Shown here piece by piece: positions 4,299 through 30,500 of a stretch of DNA of 30,500 nucleotides (positions within the stretch are counted from its first letter, which is position 1; each line of letters opens with the position of its first letter). The stretch is from a virus. The notes under the pieces are model-generated. The model saw only the letters and a list, made by a program, of their open reading frames with translations, had not been told where the DNA came from and did not search any database. Both the position numbers and the translations under genes were made by a program. Location of the stretch: positions 1 to 30,500 of the IMG/VR virus record IMGVR_UViG_3300018080_000087; one strand, given 5' to 3'.

Positions 4299-4868
4299 TT
4301 ATTCTCCAAAAATTTGTTTATCAGTGATTGATTTCTTTTTAAGTATATCATTTCTGATTTTTATAAGTTTTGGACGTAAATCAGAGATTATATAATCACA
4401 TTGGTTTATTTTCAGGAGTTGTGATTTTGCCCAGATTGCCATTTTTTTGCTATTAAGATCACGTATCATTACTGGACTTGTATCAATATTAACAGAGTAA
4501 CATCCATTCTCTCCGACTTTATCTAATCCGCATTGTATGAATACAAGATATACAGGTGTTCCACTAATATTAGATAATTCTCTATAAGCTTCGAAAAATT
4601 TATGATCTATACCAGTACAGTGCTCATTATATATTCTTGATAGCCATTCGCTTTTTATCTTTACATCAACGTACTTTGATTTGCCATCACGCATACATAG
4701 TATATCTGGATATGTATAGCTACTAGTTGGACCAATGGCTTTTGGAGGGCAGTTATGATCATATAGATACATAGCAGTGATATGATATCCAAGGGCGATT
4801 AACTTTTCACCAATTAACCTTTCTCCTGATTCGCCTAGAGGTAAAGCTTTTTCAAATTCAATTTTCAC
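4299..4868 (-). CDS. PD-(D/E)XK-like nuclease-fold protein
   Basis: A 189-residue protein. Near the N-terminus is GESGERLIGEKLIALGYHI, matching the first helix with a conserved Glu in many PD-(D/E)XK enzymes. Then YTYPDILCMRDGKSKYVDVK (about residues 51-70) gives the core strand pair: PD, a variable turn, then (V)DVK with the catalytic D-x-K. A following GIDHKFFEAY segment fits the next helix. This fold includes restriction, resolvase and repair nucleases. DVK in place of the usual EVK is an accepted variant. In a phage it could degrade host DNA, resolve recombination or counter defence; which of these is not shown. The two bases after its stop precede the next gene's ATG. Confidence 0.6.
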   Translation of the reverse strand: MKIEFEKALPLGESGERLIGEKLIALGYHITAMYLYDHNCPPKAIGPTSSYTYPDILCMRDGKSKYVDVKIKSEWLSRIYNEHCTGIDHKFFEAYRELSNISGTPVYLVFIQCGLDKVGENGCYSVNIDTSPVMIRDLNSKKMAIWAKSQLLKINQCDYIISDLRPKLIKIRNDILKKKSITDKQIFGE

Positions 4869-5171: not shown

Positions 5172-5217
5172 CAATAAATTTAATGTTTTTATTGTTTTTT
5201 ATAAATTTATTTAAAAA

Positions 5218-5240
5218 TTAACAAAAACTATATAGTGAAA
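5218..5240 (+). promoter_or_regulatory. Plus-strand relative of the late-type motif
   Basis: Reads TTAACAAA, AAC, then TATATAGTGAAA on the plus strand. It matches the minus-strand copies at the TTAACAAA and (T)ATAGTG blocks and has the same 23-base length. It points into the non-coding region, so any transcript would be a leader or non-coding RNA. Confidence 0.4.
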
Positions 5241-5261
5241 AATGAGTTTGGCAGGATAAAA

Positions 5262-5343: not shown

Positions 5344-5373
5344 CGATTTTAAGCGATTTTAAGCGATTTTAAG
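5344..5373 (+). repeat. Three tandem decamer repeats
   Basis: CGATTTTAAG occurs three times head to tail with no gaps (5344, 5354, 5364). The last unit runs into the 57-bp element shared with 12782. Spacing near one helical turn per unit suits cooperative binding of an initiator or repressor. Confidence 0.8.
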
Positions 5374-5422
5374 AGCCATTGGTATATTGGTATAGGTTTT
5401 ATTGTTAAATGCCTTTAGAACT
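5366..5422 (+). repeat. 57-bp flanking element, left copy
   Basis: Aligned without gaps to 12782-12838, it matches at 39 of 57 positions. Identical blocks are ATTTTAAG at the start, GTATAT and GGTATAGG in the middle, and TTAGAACT-like TAGAACT at the end. Both copies have the same orientation and lie at the two ends of the plus-strand gene region. Confidence 0.6.
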
Positions 5423-5506
5423 GGAAAGAATAGCTATATAAGGATACTCTAAGGATGCCGAAGGCAAAGTAAAAGTAAAACACAAAAAAAATAAGAAGAA
5501 TCACAG

Positions 5507-5580
5507 AACCAAGGGAGGCAGGAGCTTGCCTCCTGCCTTGGTTGCTGTTTTTTGGGCGTTGCTTGCAACGACAAAAACAG
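5507..5580. repeat. Hairpin array, arm 1
   Basis: Two adjacent hairpins. The first (5507-5543) pairs AACCAA with TTGGTT and GGCAGGAG with CTCCTGCC around loop CTTGC, with GGGA bulged. The second (5545-5580) pairs CTGTTTTT with AAAAACAG and CGTTGC with GCAACG around TT. Both carry GCTTGC at the apex. A T run after the first stem could make it a terminator. AACAGG/CCTGTT (5576-5589) forms a competing small stem at the end. Confidence 0.7.
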
Positions 5581-5591
5581 GAACCTGTTAC

Positions 5592-5625
5592 ACACGCGCT
5601 CGCATGCGCTCGCGCACACGCGTGT
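5592..5625. repeat. Alternating GC-rich core with inverted repeat
   Basis: ACACGCG at 5592 pairs with CGCGTGT at 5619. The interior is largely alternating purine-pyrimidine (GCGC, GCATGC, CGCGCACACG), a composition able to form Z-DNA, in a genome that is otherwise AT-rich. It lies between the two hairpin arrays. Confidence 0.6.
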
Positions 5626-5669
5626 ATAATTAGTGTTTAAACTCTATTTTTTTGTGTGCAACAGTGTCA

Positions 5670-5730
5670 CTGCTTTTGGTCGCAAGCGACACAAAAAGCA
5701 GTAACCCAAATGGGAGGCAAGCTCCCATTT
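5670..5730. repeat. Hairpin array, arm 2 (inverted relative of arm 1)
   Basis: First hairpin 5670-5701: CTGCTTTT pairs with AAAAGCAG and GTCGC with GCGAC around AA. Second hairpin 5708-5730: AAATGGGAG pairs perfectly with CTCCCATTT around GCAAG. Read on the other strand, the order and apex sequences match arm 1, but stem bases differ on both sides in a way that keeps pairing. Confidence 0.7.
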
Positions 5731-5812
5731 ACCTTAGGGCCTCTTTTTCTCTTACTTTTTTTCTTATTTTTCTCTTATTATTATCTTAATAACGCGCACG
5801 CACGCGTAGAAG

Positions 5813-5867
5813 CGCCACGTGTGTCGTATTGCTCATGTAGGCAACCCGCCACGTGTGTCGTATTGCT
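5813..5867 (+). repeat. Two 21-bp direct repeats containing CACGTG
   Basis: CGCCACGTGTGTCGTATTGC plus T occurs exactly at 5813-5833 and 5847-5867, 34 bases apart. Each holds the palindrome CACGTG. They lie 110-165 bases upstream of the early promoter -10 box, suitable for an activator or origin-binding protein. Confidence 0.8.
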
Positions 5868-5975
5868 AAAGAATACTAAATTTGTAAACATAATGTTAAA
5901 AAGCATATAAATAAAATTATTTTCATATTAGTGTAATATTTTTTCATATTTGTGAAGGTTTTTTATTTTTTTTAT

Positions 5976-5983
5976 GGTATAAT
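5976..5983 (+). promoter_or_regulatory. Early rightward promoter, extended -10
   Basis: TGGTATAAT gives a perfect TATAAT at 5978-5983 preceded by the extended -10 TG. No -35 match is seen at the usual distance; the upstream DNA is T-rich. The predicted transcript starts near 5990, just at the structured leader of the 6085 gene. The same TGGTATAAT occurs before the 7331 gene. Confidence 0.6.
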
Positions 5984-5989
5984 AGAGAG

Positions 5990-6066
5990 CAGGGGCTAGA
6001 TATGTTTAGCTACCATATTGAAAGCCTTCACCTTGCTGGGTTGCCCCTGATTTTTATAAGCAAGGT
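5990..6066 (+). promoter_or_regulatory. Structured leader with possible pseudoknot/attenuator
   Basis: CAGGGGC (5990-5996) can pair with GCCCCTG (6043-6049), which is followed by ATTTTT as in an intrinsic terminator. ACCTTGCT (6030-6037), inside that loop, can pair with AGCAAGGT (6059-6066) beyond it. The two helices interlock in the order a-b-a'-b', an H-type pseudoknot or alternative structures, close to the ribosome-binding site of the next gene. No known riboswitch class is recognised. Confidence 0.45.
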
Positions 6067-6082
6067 CCAAAAGCGAGGTTAA
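6002..6082 (+). CDS. Possible leader peptide, 26 aa
   Basis: ATG at 6002, with AGGGG ten bases upstream, opens a 26-codon frame ending TAA at 6082, two bases before the ATG of the next gene. The peptide starts MFSYHIESLHLAGLPLIFIS. It overlaps the whole structured leader, so its translation would decide which helices form, as in attenuators. It may equally be chance: part of the coding sequence is dictated by the stems. Confidence 0.3.
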   Translation: MFSYHIESLHLAGLPLIFISKVQKRG

Positions 6083-6084
6083 AA

Positions 6085-6492
6085 ATGAAAAAGTACTACA
6101 AATTTTTTACTATGATTCCAGATGAGTTTATTGAGTTAGTATCTAAAGGGCTTGACTCAAGAGCATTCGTAATATATATTGATATGTGCAAAAGGAGCCG
6201 TGAAATAGGTAATGTATGGGTATCTATGACAAACAAGGAAGTTGTTAAACTATTTGGAGAATCAATTAGTGAACGCACAGCAGATAGAATTATAAGTAAT
6301 ATGGTTGAGCACGGTATCATAGAAATACAAAATAGATCTAATAAGAAAAACGGGAAAAGTCTAGGTGGCAAACACAGATACGCAAAATCAACATATCATA
6401 AAGTACAGAGGAGTATAAATTATGAAAAGAAATCAAATTTTAGAAGCGAAGATAAGCAAAAGCGCGAAGTTGGTGTGGCTATATCTGCTTGA
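6085..6492 (+). CDS. Winged-helix protein, possible replication initiator or regulator
   Basis: A 135-residue protein, first gene after the rightward promoter, with GAGG eight bases upstream of the ATG. Residues ~20-80 (SRAFVIYIDMC, MTNKEVVKLFGESISERTAD, NMVEHGIIEI) have the helix-helix-wing pattern of winged-helix DNA-binding domains used by plasmid and phage initiators and replisome organisers. After ~95 the tail is basic and disordered. Its last 71 bases overlap the next gene in another frame. Position next to the iterons makes an origin-binding role plausible. A transcription regulator is the main alternative. Confidence 0.65.
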   Translation: MKKYYKFFTMIPDEFIELVSKGLDSRAFVIYIDMCKRSREIGNVWVSMTNKEVVKLFGESISERTADRIISNMVEHGIIEIQNRSNKKNGKSLGGKHRYAKSTYHKVQRSINYEKKSNFRSEDKQKREVGVAISA

Positions 6493-6610
6493 TAACCCAG
6501 TTGCTAAACGAACTAAAATAGCTAAAGATATTGGTGTATGCGAACGAACAGTTTCAAATGCTAAAAAAGAAATTGAATTGTACTTGAGAAACAAAGGAGA
6601 ACAAAAATGA
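6422..6610 (+). CDS. Small helix-turn-helix protein
   Basis: A 62-residue protein with GAGGAG eight bases upstream of the ATG, starting inside the previous gene. Residues ~28-50 (VAKRTKIAKDIGVCERTVSN) are a clear helix-turn-helix. The segment IAKDIGVCERTVSNAKKEI resembles IAEATGTCPKTVYNAKQYV in the 7841-8131 product, so the two are probably paralogues. The stop overlaps the next ATG (ATGA). Likely a small DNA-binding regulator or initiator accessory protein. Confidence 0.65.
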   Translation: MKRNQILEAKISKSAKLVWLYLLDNPVAKRTKIAKDIGVCERTVSNAKKEIELYLRNKGEQK

Positions 6611-6883: not shown

Positions 6884-7161
6884 CACGCACAAATGAGTTC
6901 AGAAATTTCATATGTTTTGCCTTTTGCAATTACCTTTGTAATTTCATATGCTTCGCCATTAACATGGTTCCAAAGTCCACCACCATCATAAAGAACTTGA
7001 ACATAAGAACGAATGCAACCCAATACACTACAACCATCAGATAACAACTGCTTGCCAGTAATCACATCAAACATTCTAAAAATTTTAACCTTAGAAAACC
7101 ATTCATTCTCTGCAATGTTGCCGGATTCATCAACGAGCCTGATTCTGAAGTTATTAACCAT
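6883..7161 (-). CDS. Unknown protein, minus-strand gene within the early region
   Basis: A 92-residue product with AAAGGAGAT upstream of the ATG. It is predicted to be beta-rich (RIRLVDESGN, KVKIFRMFDV, GEAYEITKVIAKGKTYEISE). It is the only leftward gene in the rightward block and has its own candidate promoter at 7194-7221. An oppositely transcribed single gene in an early region often encodes a regulator or an accessory 'moron' function, but no motif supports either. Confidence 0.6.
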   Translation of the reverse strand: MVNNFRIRLVDESGNIAENEWFSKVKIFRMFDVITGKQLLSDGCSVLGCIRSYVQVLYDGGGLWNHVNGEAYEITKVIAKGKTYEISELICA

Positions 7162-7840: not shown

Positions 7841-8131
7841 GTGAAGAAGTACCCACATATTAAAAAGTTATACGAGAATATCCTAAAAGCAGATTTCTCA
7901 AGTAAATCTGTCCCTGCCACATATAAAGTTATTGTTATGTACATGATACATCTCTGTGATATAGGCTACAATCCAGAAGAATACACAACAGATCAAATTG
8001 CTGAAGCAACAGGTACATGTCCAAAAACAGTATACAATGCCAAGCAATATGTTCACAATTGCAAAAAAGAGATTGAAACTATCACGATTAATGCAATCCG
8101 AAGAAATTGGAAAAGGATTAAAATATTATGA
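7841..8131 (+). CDS. Small winged-helix/HTH protein, GTG start
   Basis: A 96-residue protein with GTG at 7841 and AGGAG about ten bases upstream. Residues ~50-74 (YTTDQIAEATGTCPKTVYNA) form a helix-turn-helix similar to that of the 6422-6610 product, preceded by a helical stretch like winged-helix first helices. The C-terminus is basic (IRRNWKRIKIL). ATGA overlap with the next gene shows coupling. Likely DNA-binding; initiator, regulator or repressor cannot be told apart. Confidence 0.65.
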   Translation: MKKYPHIKKLYENILKADFSSKSVPATYKVIVMYMIHLCDIGYNPEEYTTDQIAEATGTCPKTVYNAKQYVHNCKKEIETITINAIRRNWKRIKIL

Positions 8132-8604
8132 GTACATCAGTAAACTCACGTAAAGCTCGTTATATGTTTCAAGAGGCTGGAGTTTCTGGACGAATCCACG
8201 TTGAAACCAAACTACCGATATCTCAACTATATGTAATAGCACTACAAGGAGAGCTAAAAAAAATAAAGAATCCTGTTAAATGGCAAAAAGCAGAAATTAA
8301 GTTAGTTGAGCACACAGCATATTGCCATTTTGCCGAAAAGAATTGGTACATTGATCGTGTTGGCAAAGATTGCACAATAGAAGAGATACAGGAGAAGTTG
8401 AATAAAAAATTACAGGATTTTGAAGCTGGTGAACCAATAAAAGCAAAAAAAATTGCAGGTGATGGTTTTTTTAATATTAGAAAATCAACAAAAGAAGAAC
8501 TATCTGATATTTTTGATGCACTAAGAAAACCAGGTGCTCCTGATTTAGATAAAGCTATAAAAAAAGCAAAAAAAGTTAAAAATCTTGCAGGAGATTTAAA
8601 ATAA
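8128..8604 (+). CDS. Unknown early protein, 158 aa
   Basis: Starts in an ATGA overlap with the HTH gene. The N-terminal ~80 residues look folded (KWQKAEIKLVEHTAYCHFAE); the C-terminal half is helical and very lysine-rich (KKAKKVKNLAGDLK at the end). No signal peptide, membrane span or known motif. Nucleic-acid binding is plausible from charge and company, no more. Confidence 0.6.
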   Translation: MSTSVNSRKARYMFQEAGVSGRIHVETKLPISQLYVIALQGELKKIKNPVKWQKAEIKLVEHTAYCHFAEKNWYIDRVGKDCTIEEIQEKLNKKLQDFEAGEPIKAKKIAGDGFFNIRKSTKEELSDIFDALRKPGAPDLDKAIKKAKKVKNLAGDLK

Positions 8605-9848: not shown

Positions 9849-11786
9849 ATGAATTATAAAATAATAAATGGAGATTGCATAGATAAATTAAAAGATCTAG
9901 AAGATAATAGTATTGATAGTATTGTTACAGATCCACCTTATGGACTAAGTAAAGAACCCAATCCTGTTGAAGTTATGAAAGCTTGGTGTTCTGAAGAAAT
10001 ATATAAGAATAAAAGCAAAGGTTTTATGAATCAAGAATGGGATTCGTTTGTTCCATCACCAGCTATTTTTAAGGAAGCTATAAGGGTTTTAAAGCCAGGT
10101 GGACATATTTTATGCTTTGCTGGTACAAGGACAGTAGATTGGATGTCCATGAGCCTTAGATTCGCAGGATTCGAAATTCGTGATATGATTGCTTGGGTAC
10201 ATGGCATGGGATTTCCAAAAAGTCATAATATAAGTAAAAATATCTCCAAAAGTATTGATAAAACACTGTATAATGAAGTAGATTGGAAAACAAGTTCTAA
10301 AAATACGGAGTTATTATGGAAAATCTTAAAAAATGCGAATCCTGCCACACAATTATTAAAAAAGAATCTAACAGAAGTTGGGAACAATACAAGAAAAAGA
10401 AATATTGCTCCAGAAGATGCTTTGCAATCAGCGCAAGTAAAAAGAAACAATGCGAATGTTTATATTGTGGACGAAAATTCGAAAGAAGCCCTTCACATGC
10501 AAAAGGAAAAACTTTTTGTAGCGTTGAATGTAGAACAAAATATGCAAACTTCGAAACAAAATGTGATAAATGCGGAAAAACAATTACTAAAAATAAAAAT
10601 ATACAATCCAAAGTTGAACACAATTATTGTAGTAGTAAATGTTCAAGCTTGGCTAAAAGAAAAAACAAAGGGCAAAATCAAGGAAGAAGAAGTCCAGAAG
10701 ATCTTGCTTGGAAAAAAGAAGTTATCAAACGGGATAACTATAAGTGCCAACTTTGCGGTTCTAATCGAAAACTTGAAGGACACCATATTAAACCAATTAA
10801 AACATACCCAAAACTTAGGCACGATGTTTCAAACGGAATTACTTACTGTCACAAATGCCACTATTACAAAATCCACAATGGAATGCCTAATTTCATACAT
10901 GGCAGATATTGCAAAAAAAAGCCATGAAGGCTGGGGAAGTAATTTAAAACCAGCATTAGAACCAATTATATTAGCACGTAAACCTTTATCAGAAAAAACA
11001 ATTGTCAAGAATGTATTGAAACACGGTACTGGCGGTATTAATATTGATGGGTGTAGAGTTGGATTGCAGGATGGCGAGGATACAAAACGTGTTGTTGGTG
11101 GTCATAAAACAAAATATATTGGTGGAAATCTTGAGAATAATTACCCCATTGAAAAACAATCATCAAGGGACAAAGGCAGATTCCCAGCTAATTTCATCCA
11201 CGATGGTTCAGAAGAAGTTCTTGAATTGTTTCCGAATAGTAAAAGTTCAAAAGCTGGATTTATTGAAAGAGATAATTGTGATAATAAAATTTATGGAAAA
11301 CCAACCAATCATATTGGAAGTATGGAATATGGCGATGAAGGTTCTTGTGCAAGATTCTTTTATTGTGGTAAAGCTTCCAAGCGTGATCGTAACGAAGGTT
11401 GTGAAAATCTTGAATTTAAAGAAAGTGGAGCACATCTTGGGTCTGGGCGTTGTAAAAATTGTGGAAAACTAAGACTAGACCATGAAATGTCAAGGTGTAA
11501 GTGTGGAAACTTTGAACCTGCGGAACAATTAAGCAAAAAAGGTATGAACAACAATCATCCAACAGTGAAACCTACGGATCTAATGCGTTATCTTGTTCGC
11601 CTAATTACACCACCTAACGGAACAGTATTAGATCCATTTATGGGTTCAGGTTCAACAGGTAAAGCTTGTGCTTATGAAAAGTTTGATTTTATTGGAATAG
11701 AACTAGATGAGCAATATTGCAAAATAGCAGAAGCAAGAATAAAAAAGGCTATACAAGATAATGAAACACTATGGAGTGTATTATGA
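9849..11786 (+). CDS. DNA (adenine-N6 or cytosine-N4) methyltransferase, interrupted by a nested HNH gene
   Basis: 645 residues, with GGGAG before the ATG. Motif IV DPPY is at 28-31 and motif I DPFMGSGSTG at 595-604, so the order is the beta class of amino-methyltransferases. AIRVLKPGGHILCFAGTRT, WVHGMGFPKSHNISK (116-130), WGSNLKPALEPIILARKPL (362-380) and HPTVKPTDLMRYLVRLITPP are all typical of phage enzymes. A Cys-rich zinc-ribbon-like stretch (GRCKNCGKLRLD then CKCGNFEP) precedes the last block. Normally the FPKSHNISK and HEGWG blocks are close together. Here about 220 residues of unrecognisable lysine- and asparagine-rich sequence lie between them (roughly 140-358), and those bases encode an HNH nuclease in another frame. 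Whether the enzyme is active with this insert is unknown. It would methylate phage or host DNA, commonly to evade restriction. Confidence 0.85.
   Translation: MNYKIINGDCIDKLKDLEDNSIDSIVTDPPYGLSKEPNPVEVMKAWCSEEIYKNKSKGFMNQEWDSFVPSPAIFKEAIRVLKPGGHILCFAGTRTVDWMSMSLRFAGFEIRDMIAWVHGMGFPKSHNISKNISKSIDKTLYNEVDWKTSSKNTELLWKILKNANPATQLLKKNLTEVGNNTRKRNIAPEDALQSAQVKRNNANVYIVDENSKEALHMQKEKLFVALNVEQNMQTSKQNVINAEKQLLKIKIYNPKLNTIIVVVNVQAWLKEKTKGKIKEEEVQKILLGKKKLSNGITISANFAVLIENLKDTILNQLKHTQNLGTMFQTELLTVTNATITKSTMECLISYMADIAKKSHEGWGSNLKPALEPIILARKPLSEKTIVKNVLKHGTGGINIDGCRVGLQDGEDTKRVVGGHKTKYIGGNLENNYPIEKQSSRDKGRFPANFIHDGSEEVLELFPNSKSSKAGFIERDNCDNKIYGKPTNHIGSMEYGDEGSCARFFYCGKASKRDRNEGCENLEFKESGAHLGSGRCKNCGKLRLDHEMSRCKCGNFEPAEQLSKKGMNNNHPTVKPTDLMRYLVRLITPPNGTVLDPFMGSGSTGKACAYEKFDFIGIELDEQYCKIAEARIKKAIQDNETLWSVL
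10316..10927 (+). CDS. HNH endonuclease nested out of frame inside the methyltransferase gene
   Basis: 203 residues, ATG at 10316 with GGAG six bases upstream, stop TGA at 10925-10927. Four Cys clusters are visible: C7/C10 with C31/C35, C48/C51 with C68/C72, C83/C86 with C105/C109, and the HNH domain with C144/C147 and C178/C181. The HNH core is WKKEVIKRDNYKCQLCG, then LEGHHIKP (H156, H157), N173 and CHKCH. This is the layout of phage homing-type nucleases: three zinc fingers for DNA contact plus the catalytic fold. It would cut one or both strands at a specific site and spread its gene into lines that lack it. It lies in the reading frame whose codons begin one base before the methyltransferase codons. 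Its stop codon overlaps the HEGWG codons of the host gene. Confidence 0.85.
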   Translation: MENLKKCESCHTIIKKESNRSWEQYKKKKYCSRRCFAISASKKKQCECLYCGRKFERSPSHAKGKTFCSVECRTKYANFETKCDKCGKTITKNKNIQSKVEHNYCSSKCSSLAKRKNKGQNQGRRSPEDLAWKKEVIKRDNYKCQLCGSNRKLEGHHIKPIKTYPKLRHDVSNGITYCHKCHYYKIHNGMPNFIHGRYCKKKP

Positions 11787-18328: not shown

Positions 18329-18351
18329 TTACACTATAGATTTTTTGTTAA
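18329..18351 (-). promoter_or_regulatory. Putative late promoter/operator motif, copy 4
   Basis: Minus strand: TTAACAAA, AAA, TCTATAGTGTAA. It differs from copies 1 and 2 at a few positions. It overlaps the last codons and stop of the 18334-18690 gene and lies 71 bases upstream of the tail-tube start. Confidence 0.55.
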
Positions 18352-18690
18352 ATAGTTTAACTCGTTAATATCAATATCAAGTTTATTTACTCCCAAAGTT
18401 AACCATCTGTTCTCTTCGGAGATTTCTGAAAAATACCCATTATTATATTCTAAGCAGTGATATTCAGCATTATAACAATAATAGTTATCACGATTTGTTC
18501 TCATTGTAATAGCAAAACTTTGAATACCAACATCAACACCAAAATTATATACATATAATGGCAAATATTTTATTGGAACCCATTGGATCAATGTAAACTG
18601 ATAATCAGTCCACTTTATCTGATAAAATTTATTCAGTTTATCAATTGTAATAACAACTCTACCATCAAGTTCATGATAAAAATCTATCAT
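18334..18690 (-). CDS. Unknown protein between tail terminator and tail tube genes
   Basis: 118 residues if started at ATG 18690, which has no good ribosome-binding site. The same frame is open further upstream to about 18760 and encodes a plausible extension (LGKEGAFTELNTLRGTPSWM), so the protein may be longer by about 24 residues and begin at a non-standard codon, or be joined to the preceding poly-serine gene by a -1 slip. The product is beta-rich and aromatic (NFGVDVGIQSFAITMRTNRD). A tail structural or accessory role is inferred from position only. Confidence 0.6.
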   Translation of the reverse strand: MIDFYHELDGRVVITIDKLNKFYQIKWTDYQFTLIQWVPIKYLPLYVYNFGVDVGIQSFAITMRTNRDNYYCYNAEYHCLEYNNGYFSEISEENRWLTLGVNKLDIDINELNYLTKNL

Positions 18691-18755: not shown

Positions 18756-19313
18756 TTAAAAATCTTCACTACTCGATGAACTGCTACTTTGGCTACTCGA
18801 TGAACTGCTGGAACTTTCTGAACTTAATGAACTGCTTGAACTACTACTTGATGTACTTGAACTGCTTGAAGAACTACTTGAAACTAATGCCTCAATACTT
18901 GTGCCAATCAGATAACTCATGGTTACAACATAACCATAACCATCTTTGGTATCCTGTGGTACTGATACAACACTATCAATTTCGTTGTTTAAATATCTGT
19001 ATCCATCAATGGCAAATGTTTTCTTATAAAGGATCTCTTGTACTCTATCAGCAATTTGCATAGCATCTAATTGTGTTGGACGGTTTTGACCATCTGGCAT
19101 GCTATAACAACCAAACTGCACTTGAATTGTTATATATCTGCAAGCGTTTGTTCCAACACCAGCACTTAAATATCCTGATACTTCACTTTGTCCTACATGG
19201 TTAATAGCAATGTATTCACCTGTTTGACCCTTTGTAATACCAAAATATATATCATATTCTGATAGTGCGGTTTCACAATAGTTTATCAAGCCAACATAAA
19301 ATTCTGTAATCAT
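18756..19313 (-). CDS. Tail terminator-like protein with poly-serine C-terminal tail
   Basis: 185 residues. Residues 1-143 fit siphovirus tail-terminator/completion proteins by position (after the HK97 gp10-like gene, before the tube) and by pattern: an N-terminal helix with target phrases like DIYFGITKGQTGEYIAINHV and ITIQVQFGCYSMPDGQNRPT. Residues 145-182 are nearly all serine, ending SEDF. A tail this long is not a usual part of the family. It resembles the tail of the 1567-2160 product. The gene ends at TTT TAA after a five-T run, with another frame open directly afterwards. Confidence 0.65.
   Translation of the reverse strand: MITEFYVGLINYCETALSEYDIYFGITKGQTGEYIAINHVGQSEVSGYLSAGVGTNACRYITIQVQFGCYSMPDGQNRPTQLDAMQIADRVQEILYKKTFAIDGYRYLNNEIDSVVSVPQDTKDGYGYVVTMSYLIGTSIEALVSSSSSSSSSTSSSSSSSSLSSESSSSSSSSQSSSSSSSEDF
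18768..18881 (-). repeat. Second poly-serine coding repeat
   Basis: Encodes residues 145-182 of the tail terminator-like protein: serine runs broken by single T, L, E or Q. Codons are mixed AGT, AGC, TCA, TCG and TCT, as in the repeat at 1570-1803. Confidence 0.85.
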
Positions 19314-20818: not shown

Positions 20819-20841
20819 TTACACTTTAGACGTTTTGTTAA
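20819..20841 (-). promoter_or_regulatory. Putative late promoter/operator motif, copy 2
   Basis: Minus strand: TTAACAAA, ACG, TCTAAAGTGTAA; 22 of 23 positions identical to copy 1. It sits 32 bases upstream of the connector gene, directly downstream of the capsid terminator, where a new promoter would be needed. Confidence 0.65.
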
Positions 20842-20859
20842 TTTTTAAGCTAAAGAAAA

Positions 20860-23214: not shown

Positions 23215-24420
23215 TTAGTTTAGTAATTCTGATCTTGCATCTTCTGCTGTAAGTATTCCAACTTCAACCAATCTTATGATATCATTCACTTTATCTTTTC
23301 TACGTTGTTCAACTGGATCATCATAAGTGAGATATAATCTTGGCTCTTCATACATTGATATAATATGTGCATTTATATCATCAATAATTTGCCTGATTTT
23401 TGGTTCAACGGTTTGCATTTGATATTGCATTAAGGTTGTTTCAAAACTTGCTCTATTAATTTCTTGTGGAGCAACAAAGGATACAGGTACTCCAAAGGCA
23501 CTGAGAATACTTTCTCTGGTTATAATTCTTCCCTGTTTGAAATCCATATCTTTTGGATTCATACCAATAGATATCAGGTCAAAATCGCCACCAATAACTT
23601 TTACTTTACCCGTATTTGAGATACCCTTCATGGTTTTATTCCAAGATTTCTCAAGTATTGCTCTATCTTTCTCGTTTAGTACTCCACCATTGTACTTGAT
23701 AATGCCACTTGGATTACCTGAGTTTTCATTAATTGCTAATTGATAAGCATCAAATGAATCATCAAGTTGATATTGAGTATAAACAGCCTGAAGTGGTGCG
23801 AAACCATACATATCAGAGTATGGTGAATAATACTTTATTCGCACTATATCTTCAGGCTTATATTTAACTTGAGATTTACCAAAACCATATCTGTATTCTT
23901 TTATTTTGCCATTATTCTTCTCGATAGTAACAAATTGAGAGTGCAAAACCTCCATATTAACTGGGATATTCAGTAATGGATCTTTTTGTATATAAAGATA
24001 TGCCGTGCCAAATAGTTCTAGGTTTGTTACTAATGAATAAATGAATGTATACTGTGAATCATTTTGATTAGGTTTCTCAAGCAATTGTAAAAATGGATGG
24101 TTAATAATTTCAACAATGTTTTCTGCCTGCTTAAATTCAGGGCGTTTAATTAAAGATGTATCGTGAGCAAAAGTTTCTTTGCTTACTTGTTTATGTAGTG
24201 CTCTAACTTGAGAATCATTACGGTTTGTAGTTGCAACCAATCGCATATTTTGTGAAGCAATTGCATCTGCATTTTTAGATACACAAATATATACCCATTT
24301 GCGATACGCTTCAGCTAATTTACTTGGATCAATTTTATTTGATGTGAATTTCTTTGGCAGAAGTAGTTGTAAACCACCACCAATATCTTTTTTATTGAAT
24401 AACAATTTTAAAAATCCCAT
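23215..24420 (-). CDS. Portal protein, HK97 family
   Basis: 401 residues with AAGG upstream of the ATG. Characteristic stretches are RKWVYICVSKNADAIASQNM, NHPFLQLLEKPNQNDSQYTF, ELFGTAYLYIQKD, YKPEDIVRIKYYSPYSDMYG and the conserved end ILSAFGVPVSFV plus the C-terminal helix. It forms the 12-subunit ring through which DNA enters and leaves the head. A copy of the late motif is 18 bases upstream of its start. Confidence 0.93.
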   Translation of the reverse strand: MGFLKLLFNKKDIGGGLQLLLPKKFTSNKIDPSKLAEAYRKWVYICVSKNADAIASQNMRLVATTNRNDSQVRALHKQVSKETFAHDTSLIKRPEFKQAENIVEIINHPFLQLLEKPNQNDSQYTFIYSLVTNLELFGTAYLYIQKDPLLNIPVNMEVLHSQFVTIEKNNGKIKEYRYGFGKSQVKYKPEDIVRIKYYSPYSDMYGFAPLQAVYTQYQLDDSFDAYQLAINENSGNPSGIIKYNGGVLNEKDRAILEKSWNKTMKGISNTGKVKVIGGDFDLISIGMNPKDMDFKQGRIITRESILSAFGVPVSFVAPQEINRASFETTLMQYQMQTVEPKIRQIIDDINAHIISMYEEPRLYLTYDDPVEQRRKDKVNDIIRLVEVGILTAEDARSELLN

Positions 24421-24437
24421 AAACTTACCTTTTATGT

Positions 24438-24460
24438 TTACACTTTAGACACTTTTTTAA
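24438..24460 (-). promoter_or_regulatory. Putative late promoter/operator motif, copy 3
   Basis: Minus strand: TTAAAAAA, GTG, TCTAAAGTGTAA. The TCTAAAGTGTAA half is identical to copies 1 and 2; the other half is weaker. It overlaps the last codons of the large terminase gene and is 18 bases upstream of the portal start, leaving room for the ribosome-binding site only. Confidence 0.6.
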
Positions 24461-25818
24461 ATATCAGTCCAAATAGCTTCATCTTCGACTAATTCTCTAG
24501 TGCTTTTCTCTGTTTCTCTTTTAATTTTAAACTGTTTTACTCCATTACCTAGATCAATGGCATCTTCAGGTGTTGATAATGCTTCTTTTGCAAAATCAAA
24601 ATCAATCATTGCATTACCAAGCAATTCTGTTAGAGCATATACACATGCATCCATTCTATTAGGAGATTTCCCAGTGCCATCATAAATAATCAATTCATAT
24701 TCGAGTTCCTCAAGATCAGTACAATGAATAACATTACCACGTTCATACTGATAAGCAATTGGTTCTGCACGAAGTAATTTGCCTTTATATGCGTGAACTT
24801 TTCTTAATGGAACTGTATTGTCAAAATTCTGAATAACAGTTTCTATCAAATCTCCACCCTGATTAGTTTCTGCCACAACATAATTTGCATCATATTTATG
24901 ATATAATTTAACAACTTCATTTGCCCATTCATTTGCACTGTATTTACCTGTTCTATCTTCTAGTACATAACCTATGCCATCTTTTAATCCTGCGACTACA
25001 ATTCCAGTTTCATCACTCTCTTTTTTATTTGTAACTGCCGGATCAACACCAATAACAATTTTATCAAGCTCTGGTTGTTTATCATGTTTAAACCACTGAT
25101 GTTTCCAAAGAGCACCTTCTTTTAGATCCTGAAACTCACCATAGAGAAATCTTTGTTTATGAACAAGATCCATATCTTCGAAAACAGAGAAGTAATTACT
25201 ATTCAAATTCTCTTGATTATCTTTTGGTTCAAGTTTTACTGCTAAATGATTCTTTTTTGGCTTTTCTATAAAGTGTTTGTATGTCCAATGAGTTTTCAAT
25301 GGTGGGTTGCATGCATACCAAGCTCTATTAACCATTTCTTTACCATTTATGATATGCTTTTCTTCTAATCGTGTTAATGCTTTCTGAACAGAGTCATAAC
25401 TTATTTGATCACATTCTTCAAAAAATAATGTTGAGAATTTAGAACCAAGTATTTTATTTGCTCTCTGATCATCATCTAATCCACCTAACCAAATCTTAGA
25501 ATTATTTGGAAAGCTTAATATCCAGTTGCTTCTATCTAAAGAGTAGTGAGCACCTTCTGCCATACCAAGAGATTCAAGTGCTTCTGGTAAAGTAATCATA
25601 CCAATCTTTGTTTTTACATCATTAAAATATCTTCTCAATATTGCATGATTAGATCGTGGAGCTTTTAATGCTCTTATAATTAGCAATCTGCAAAGAAGAA
25701 GAGATTTACCTGAACGTGAACCAGAGTAAAGAAGCACATGAGTGGCATCTTTTTTTAAAAGAACATCAAGTGCTTTCTCCTGAGATTTATTAAGTTTAAA
25801 TTTGGCTTTCTTTTCCAC
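24457..25818 (-). CDS. terL: Terminase large subunit
   Basis: 453 residues from GTG at 25818. Walker A GSRSGKS is at 33-39 and Walker B LFFEECDQIS at 131-140, giving the packaging ATPase. The RNase H-like nuclease follows: VIGVDPA (Asp259), VVAETNQGGD (Glu317) and SPNRMDACVYAL (Asp390). It pumps DNA into the prohead and cuts concatemers. Its start overlaps the small terminase gene by 23 bases. The initiation site is weak, so translation is probably coupled to the upstream gene. Confidence 0.95.
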   Translation of the reverse strand: MEKKAKFKLNKSQEKALDVLLKKDATHVLLYSGSRSGKSLLLCRLLIIRALKAPRSNHAILRRYFNDVKTKIGMITLPEALESLGMAEGAHYSLDRSNWILSFPNNSKIWLGGLDDDQRANKILGSKFSTLFFEECDQISYDSVQKALTRLEEKHIINGKEMVNRAWYACNPPLKTHWTYKHFIEKPKKNHLAVKLEPKDNQENLNSNYFSVFEDMDLVHKQRFLYGEFQDLKEGALWKHQWFKHDKQPELDKIVIGVDPAVTNKKESDETGIVVAGLKDGIGYVLEDRTGKYSANEWANEVVKLYHKYDANYVVAETNQGGDLIETVIQNFDNTVPLRKVHAYKGKLLRAEPIAYQYERGNVIHCTDLEELEYELIIYDGTGKSPNRMDACVYALTELLGNAMIDFDFAKEALSTPEDAIDLGNGVKQFKIKRETEKSTRELVEDEAIWTDI

Positions 25819-29471: not shown

Positions 29472-30500
29472 TTATACTCTTATTCTTAATCTTCTTCTTC
29501 TAAAATAGTTTCTGTTATATGTTTGCGGTGTTATACCTGTATCTGCCGATGCTGATGCCTCTAATGCTCCGGCATCATATGCAGATCCTTGTGGGCGCTC
29601 AGTTTTTGCAATATCATCATCAACAATACCTGATAAATCTTTACCCATATCTCTTGCAGGAGAGCCTGTTTTAAGAGAATAATCATTGTTTAGATAATCT
29701 GTAAAAATATCTGTTGTGGTTTGGCTTATTAGGTTATTGCTACCATTATAATCATTCAGTCCACCCTGATTTGAAACACTATTATTAATAGTAACTCCAG
29801 TACCAGATCCACCACCAACCAAAACCTCGTCATAAGAGCTAGATGTACGCATAGAGAAAATACAGTTTTCAACCAAACACGAATCTTTAGAATCATTACA
29901 AATAAAGCTTATACATCTTGTGTTACCGTTTGAAGCTAAATTTACAGGACTATAAAATGTACAATGCTGAACTGTAAGAAGTGTGGGATCATTTGATGAA
30001 TAAAGAGGCTCTGATGTAATCTCACTTTTAAAAACAAATACACAATTCCGAACGTATACCTCATTGTAAACCGTCAAATAAATAGCATCTCGTCCAGGAT
30101 AAAGGAACATACAGCGATTAACCCATAGCGTATCACCAAGTGTAAGATTGGTATTCCAATCTATTGCCTCATCCTCCGTTTCTCCCGTTGATACACCAAA
30201 TCGTATACCTGTAATCTCTGTAAACTCAATATATGCAAGTATACACTTTGTTGATGCTCCAAGGATATATGCGCCAGCATCAATTACTCCAAGATGCTCT
30301 TCTCCATCAGCAGCATAAATTTTTGGATATGCTTCTGATGTTGATGTAGCTGTCCAGCTTTGGATCGTTACTTCACCAAGATCTCCACCAGTATAGCACT
30401 CTGCGTGTTGATAAGCCGAAGCCTCTCCATCCGCCCAGTCCTCCCATGCCTGTAAGGTGGTATAATCTCCACCCCCAGCGGGTTTGATCGTTTTGATCAT
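29472..30500 (-). CDS. Tandem beta-helix virion protein, C-terminal module (continues from 1032)
   Basis: 342 residues from the in-frame ATG at 30500 to the stop at 29472; in the circular map the frame extends upstream through bases 123 to 1032, giving a 645-residue protein. The second module opens with KTIKPAGGGDYTTLQAWEDW and has beta-helix-like coils with short Asn/Cys steps (VNRCMFLYPGRDAIYLTVYN, VQHCTFYSPVNLASNG, VENCIFSMRTSSSYDEV). It ends in DDIAKTERPQGSAYDAGALE, like the first module's IENGTYDIGALE, and a basic tail FRRRRLRIRV. The whole is a duplication of one domain. Likely a fibre or appendage. Confidence 0.75.
   Translation of the reverse strand: MIKTIKPAGGGDYTTLQAWEDWADGEASAYQHAECYTGGDLGEVTIQSWTATSTSEAYPKIYAADGEEHLGVIDAGAYILGASTKCILAYIEFTEITGIRFGVSTGETEDEAIDWNTNLTLGDTLWVNRCMFLYPGRDAIYLTVYNEVYVRNCVFVFKSEITSEPLYSSNDPTLLTVQHCTFYSPVNLASNGNTRCISFICNDSKDSCLVENCIFSMRTSSSYDEVLVGGGSGTGVTINNSVSNQGGLNDYNGSNNLISQTTTDIFTDYLNNDYSLKTGSPARDMGKDLSGIVDDDIAKTERPQGSAYDAGALEASASADTGITPQTYNRNYFRRRRLRIRV
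30378..30500. repeat. Terminal direct repeat (circular overlap), right copy
   Basis: Exact copy of bases 1-123; see the left copy. It covers the first 41 codons of the second beta-helix module. Confidence 0.93.

Follow-up and report, generated by a model that had tools for sequence, protein, structure and literature searches.

Known hairpin initiation sites and related palindromes

The origin oriV of the IncQ plasmid RSF1010 is known for its arrangement of hairpins. In IncQ plasmids, the hairpin sites ssiA and ssiB lie beside direct repeats and prime each of the two strands (PMC6925257). The plasmid pIGRK carries a palindromic ssi, followed by iterons and then by the rep gene, and this ssi, though dispensable, influenced copy number and multimerisation (PMC6854812). 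Inverted pairs of hairpins are also the basic unit of REPINs, the REP rule being that GTAG or GTGG stands 0-2 nt 5' of the hairpin (PMC6006769).

The locus compared here with these systems belongs to a tailed phage, as indicated by recognised genes for terminase, portal, prohead protease, major capsid and tape-measure proteins. The window, 30,500 bases long, is the entire virus record. Since its ends form an exact direct terminal repeat of 123 bp (1-123 and 30378-30500), the record is probably a complete genome, circular or terminally redundant. Minus-strand genes take up the part between about 12.85 kb and, going round, about 5.17 kb, plus-strand genes the part between 6085 and about 12.77 kb, and the element described below sits in the divergent intergenic region of about 0.9 kb between the two gene sets. 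The same intergenic region has a short tandem repeat of GATTTTAAGC (about 3 copies, 5344-5375).

The inverted repeat and the folding of its arms

When the intergenic region was compared with the window by blastn, 5470-5595 (plus strand) aligned with 5777-5654 (minus strand) as an imperfect inverted repeat with 71% identity (E=3e-7). The whole mirror-image element has 308 bases, with the arms flanking a 58-bp core (5596-5653), and the feature described in the earlier note at 5507-5730 is therefore part of a larger structure. The outer 40 bases of the repeat are low-complexity purine/pyrimidine tracts, and the informative inner part consists of the hairpins and a CTGTTnCACAC block. No alternating purine-pyrimidine tract in the genome is longer than the one within the core (5611-5628). 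No further copies of the element were found elsewhere in the phage genome.

Each arm contains two hairpins. In the left arm, hairpin B (5516-5538, plus strand) has a 9-bp stem and the composition AGGCAGGAG-CTTGC-CTCCTGCCT, to which the DNA fold adds an AACCA/TGGTT base, and hairpin A (5545-5580, plus strand) has an outer CTGTTTTT stem and an inner CGTTG(CTTG)CAACG stem. Their counterparts on the minus strand are A' (5669-5702), found by RNA and DNA folding, and B' (5708-5730), also with a 9-bp stem, which reads AAATGGGAG-CTTGC-CTCCCATTT. A and A' share two stems, CTGyTTTT on the outside and GTyG(CTTG)CrAC within. Read on the strand that points to the centre, all four hairpins have GCTTGC at the apex (5524 and 5561, plus; 5682 and 5717, minus), the A loops being CTTG closed by G-C and the B loops CTTGC. 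Sequence check and folding bear out the earlier description of these hairpins, of their apices and of the inverted arrangement. The parts kept constant between the arms are the apices (GGAGCTTGCCTCC and GCTTGC) and the linker (GGTTnCTGnTTTTT), in the same order in both. GCTTGC itself is not enriched in the genome (15 copies versus 12.4 expected), and as a hairpin apex it is found only at these four sites and on one 4-bp stem at 7050.

Folding of both strands placed the arms beyond every shuffle, both as RNA (z -3.2 to -4.4, no dinucleotide shuffle equalling any arm) and as DNA (z -4.3 to -5.5, again with no equal). In a scan of the genome as DNA, with 80-nt plus-strand segments sampled every 20 bases, the two arms have the lowest and second-lowest energies (-23.1 and -19.6 kcal/mol; mean -4.6), the nearest competitor being position 23781 with -19.4 kcal/mol. 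The 308-nt element as single-stranded DNA reaches z=-6.7 against shuffles and folds into an outer stem, hairpins B and A, a core stem, and hairpins A' and B'.

These stems could also work at the RNA level, the transcribed arms being terminators, protectors of transcript ends or a pair of small RNAs that insulate the divergent control region, which we regard as rather unlikely. In favour of such a role, RNA folding gives the GCUUGC strand of either arm a small advantage over the complementary strand (-33.4 versus -31.9 and -33.2 versus -29.0 kcal/mol), the A loops would as RNA be G(CUUG)C, a tetraloop known for its stability, and two weak terminator-like calls fall within arm 1. However, arm 2 has no terminator-like call, promoter-like sites are no commoner than in shuffles, and there is no Rfam match within 5470-5777 up to E=1. 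Bidirectional intrinsic terminators, one of the functions proposed earlier, fit poorly, since GC-rich stems immediately followed by U-tracts are not present in both arms: the run of T that comes after B already belongs to the 5' side of A, and the only tails, weak ones, are in arm 1.

The arms differ from each other in a way that keeps the pairing. With the structure taken from arm 1 alone and applied to the arm alignment, 6 of 28 pairs have two-sided changes, 1 has a one-sided change, 1 is broken and 20 are unvarying or gapped, a count that covers two sequences only, the paralogous arms. When the partners were slid by 1-3 columns as a control, 0-1 two-sided changes appeared and 35-57% of the cells paired, versus 98% with the true partners, a percentage inflated because the structure derives from one of the compared arms. 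A separate count on 21 stem pairs, hand-chosen because they pair, gave the same 6 two-sided changes and no one-sided change. The earlier observation of stems differing on both sides with pairing kept is therefore confirmed, and the two-arm comparison supports the conservation of hairpin pairing within each arm.

The comparison also speaks for the proposed selection on folded DNA or RNA, but there is a non-selective route to the same changes. Template switching in replication can create or repair stems, with multi-base paired changes (PMC8794818), and paired change alone is consequently no proof of selection. In a quasipalindrome, such events could have made the paired changes and left hairpins devoid of a selected function, and 4 of the 6 two-sided changes do neighbour each other in one stem, as a single event would leave them. 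We consider this explanation unlikely, given that changes or preserved pairing are seen in three distinct stems, that apices and linker are conserved between the arms in the same order, and that the element persists in a compact genome. The element is a real, unusually strong and well-placed structure, for which the evolutionary evidence is suggestive but thin.

No region homologous to the element was found in the viral_contigs, phage or plasmid collections, nor by pattern searches in genome_contigs, and the phage and plasmid collections contained no DNA-level relatives. The replication-like protein, terminase, capsid and portal have no close relative in viral_contigs, where one fragment with 22% identity was found. 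Among phage records only distant matches to structural proteins appeared, the best for the terminase being 36% to Synechococcus phages, and the products of 6085-6492, 4299-4868, 8128-8604 and 2254-2709 had no match there. Searching the PDB by sequence gave no useful match.

The hairpin-array pattern has ten matches in viral sequences, which are GC-richer and devoid of an inverted second array. In genome_contigs, the strict two-hairpin pattern had 0 matches and the loose one 113, seemingly unrelated sequence or REP-like repeats. REP-like repeats with GGAGCTTGCCTCC are present in the Armatimonadota class Hebobacteria and in Acetothermia, and the longer GGCAGGAGCTTGCCTCCTGCC is found in Hebobacteria; the 13-mer reaches 39 copies in one such genome, versus 0 for the reversed control. 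The GGAGCTTGCCTCC repeats are often in tandem (L032, L080, L088, L097, L105 and L107 in Hebobacteria; L053 and L073 in Acetothermia), and in L053, L073 and L032 a GTAG stands ahead of the hairpin. Since these bacterial genomes are GC-rich (about 65%) and have only the palindrome in common with the phage, we treated the likeness of GGAGCTTGCCTCC and GGCAGGAGCTTGCCTCCTGCC to bacterial repeats as convergence on a stable hairpin.

The other way to see this likeness is that a mobile palindrome, of REP/REPIN or MITE type, was inserted in the intergenic region. The phage element shares with REP/REPIN (BIME) units the inverted hairpin pair, the basic REPIN unit (PMC6006769), as well as the apex block, and GGCAGGAGCTTGCCTCCTGCC does recur as repeats in several Hebobacteria genomes. 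Nevertheless, it is a single copy in the phage, no GT[AG]G foot is present at any of the four stems on either strand, and no transposase, the Y1 HUH type included, was matched among the phage-encoded proteins scanned (Pfam, PHROG). With the Hebobacteria genomes sharing nothing beyond the palindrome, the insertion of a mobile palindrome seems very unlikely.

Alternating tracts around a centre of symmetry bring to mind a further class of sites. The telomere site of N15-type phages (tos/telRL) has inverted repeats around an alternating CG-rich centre, and the arms of our element stand nearly symmetrically around a centre of this kind, which could be bound, arms included, by a recombinase, a telomere-resolving enzyme or a partition protein. 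The arms here are imperfect, though, and the repeat at the record ends is direct rather than inverted. Among the phage proteins scanned, none could be recognised as a recombinase, integrase, protelomerase or partition protein, the protelomerase search covering the main predicted proteins of more than 200 aa with Pfam, and we consider a role in recombination, telomere resolution or partition improbable. For this and the other alternatives, the partner protein might be encoded by the host. The packaging site suggested in the earlier note is disfavoured as well, because the terminase genes are 19 kb away (10 kb around the circle).

Neighbouring DNA and a candidate replication origin

Beyond the right arm, there is a CpG-rich alternating purine-pyrimidine tract (5792-5808), the second-longest of the genome. 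It is followed by two identical direct repeats of 21 bp on the plus strand (5813-5833 and 5847-5867), at 35 bp from the inverted repeat, which are iteron-like and, with only two copies, are considered putative iterons; their pattern had no match in viral_contigs. The repeats are adjoined by a stretch of 118 bp with 85% A+T (5868-5985), a possible unwinding region, and both stand between the inverted repeat and a plus-strand gene (6085-6492) with a replication-initiator-like N-terminal domain.

The matches of this gene are partial, covering the N-terminal part, and correspond to phage replication-initiation families (phrog_270, E=8e-7; phrog_428, 1e-6; phrog_678, 7e-6). The single-sequence structure prediction of its product is poor (pLDDT 46). 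An overlapping small gene on the plus strand (6422-6610) encodes a helix-turn-helix protein matching HTH_36 (E=4.5e-5, just under the Pfam cut-off), with a weak DnaD-like match. Taken by their sequence, the surroundings of the inverted repeat resemble an origin region.

Between the AT-rich stretch and the initiator-like gene, other features were observed. After a TATAATAG box at 5978 comes a stretch predicted to be a structured RNA (5989-6065), which matches the int-alpA RNA below threshold (28.5 bits against a cut-off of 35.8). Within this stretch, ACCTTGCT (6030) is complementary to AGCAAGGT (6059), which stands just ahead of the gene, and this complementarity in the region 5978-6067 resembles antisense-RNA immunity systems of phages.

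Among the functions listed in the earlier note, a replication origin has the best contextual fit. We suggest, with somewhat less than even confidence, that the phage replication origin includes this element as a structural component, with hairpins acting when single-stranded, as ssi sites do. Its position in a large divergent intergenic region, directly upstream of an initiator-like gene, favours this reading, as do the direct repeats, the AT-rich DNA, the strong fold as single-stranded DNA, the pairing kept within arms whose apices and linker stay constant, and the location of the genome's two top-ranking alternating purine-pyrimidine tracts, by length, in and beside the element. Counted against it are the failure to find a homologous region, the partial N-terminal match and poor predicted structure of the initiator candidate, the number of repeats, only two, and the scan of the phage proteins (Pfam, PHROG), which yielded neither a recognisable primase nor a recognisable helicase. 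The GC skew, proposed earlier as a check, is mute. The cumulative skew has its minimum at about 5-5.5 kb and its maximum at about 12.7 kb, which are the points of gene divergence and convergence and are not opposite on the 30.4-kb circle. Since the skew follows the gene strand, it is confounded and lends no support to an origin.

In an origin of this kind, the initiator, probably the product of 6085-6492 or of its neighbour, would bind the 21-bp direct repeats, and the adjoining AT-rich DNA would open. The palindrome, once single-stranded or extruded, would let each arm fold into its A and B hairpins, and because the arms are inverted, each strand would show one array per orientation. The arrays could then direct host enzymes to prime synthesis, or to load a helicase, on both strands, in an ssi-like manner. 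The sequence analysis itself supplies the repeat arms, the hairpin predictions, the paired changes and the nearby direct repeats, AT-rich stretch and initiator-like gene; inference begins with the origin role, the single-stranded state in which the element would act and the enzymes that would recognise it.

The analogues of such an origin are the palindromic ssi module of pIGRK and the ssiA/ssiB sites of IncQ plasmids. With the pIGRK/pHW126-type module, the phage locus shares an ssi-like palindrome, direct repeats of about 20 bp and a rep gene in the same order (PMC6854812), but a palindrome stands there where the phage has an inverted pair of double hairpins, and no DNA resembling the phage element was found in the plasmid collection. 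As the pIGRK ssi is dispensable, the phage element may alternatively, by analogy, assist replication without being required for it. With the IncQ oriV, compared here from its description, the likeness would lie in hairpin initiation sites for two strands beside direct repeats (PMC6925257), whereas the phage has two hairpins per arm and only two direct repeats. Judging from the proteins scanned (Pfam, PHROG), the phage element falls outside the IncQ type, since no counterpart of the RepA helicase or the RepB' primase was recognised among them.

A bolder version of the origin reading, to which we give a rather low probability, is that the locus represents an origin architecture not yet described. 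Mirror-image double hairpins, invariant in their CTTG apices but free to vary in their stems, would be strand-specific initiation structures, and the phage would bring only a small DNA-binding initiator, using the primase and helicase of the host. If the origin reading is true, a tailed dsDNA phage would be using paired structure-encoded initiation sites that are known mainly from plasmids, and these would be recognised by apex and linker sequence while the stems drift. The locus would also provide a compact, testable replicon for a virus to which the collections searched offered no close relative.

Other features of the phage genome

An element with TTAACAAAAnGTCTAAAGTGTAA recurs in front of late genes, where it may act as a promoter or operator of late expression. 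Its copies are on the minus strand at 2201-2232, 18329-18356, 20819-20848 and 24438-24465, with a degenerate one on the plus strand at 5211-5244, and the pattern had no exact match in viral_contigs. The DNA methyltransferase gene (9849-11786) has an apparent in-frame insert, roughly at residues 140-375, which overlaps an HNH-like ORF (10316-10927) in a different frame. The minus-strand gene 4299-4868 encodes a protein with no Pfam or PHROG match, in which a PDIL...YVDVKIK motif looks, by eye, like that of a PD-(D/E)XK nuclease. Two other minus-strand genes (1567-2160 and 18756-19313) encode proteins that both terminate in long serine-rich repeats.
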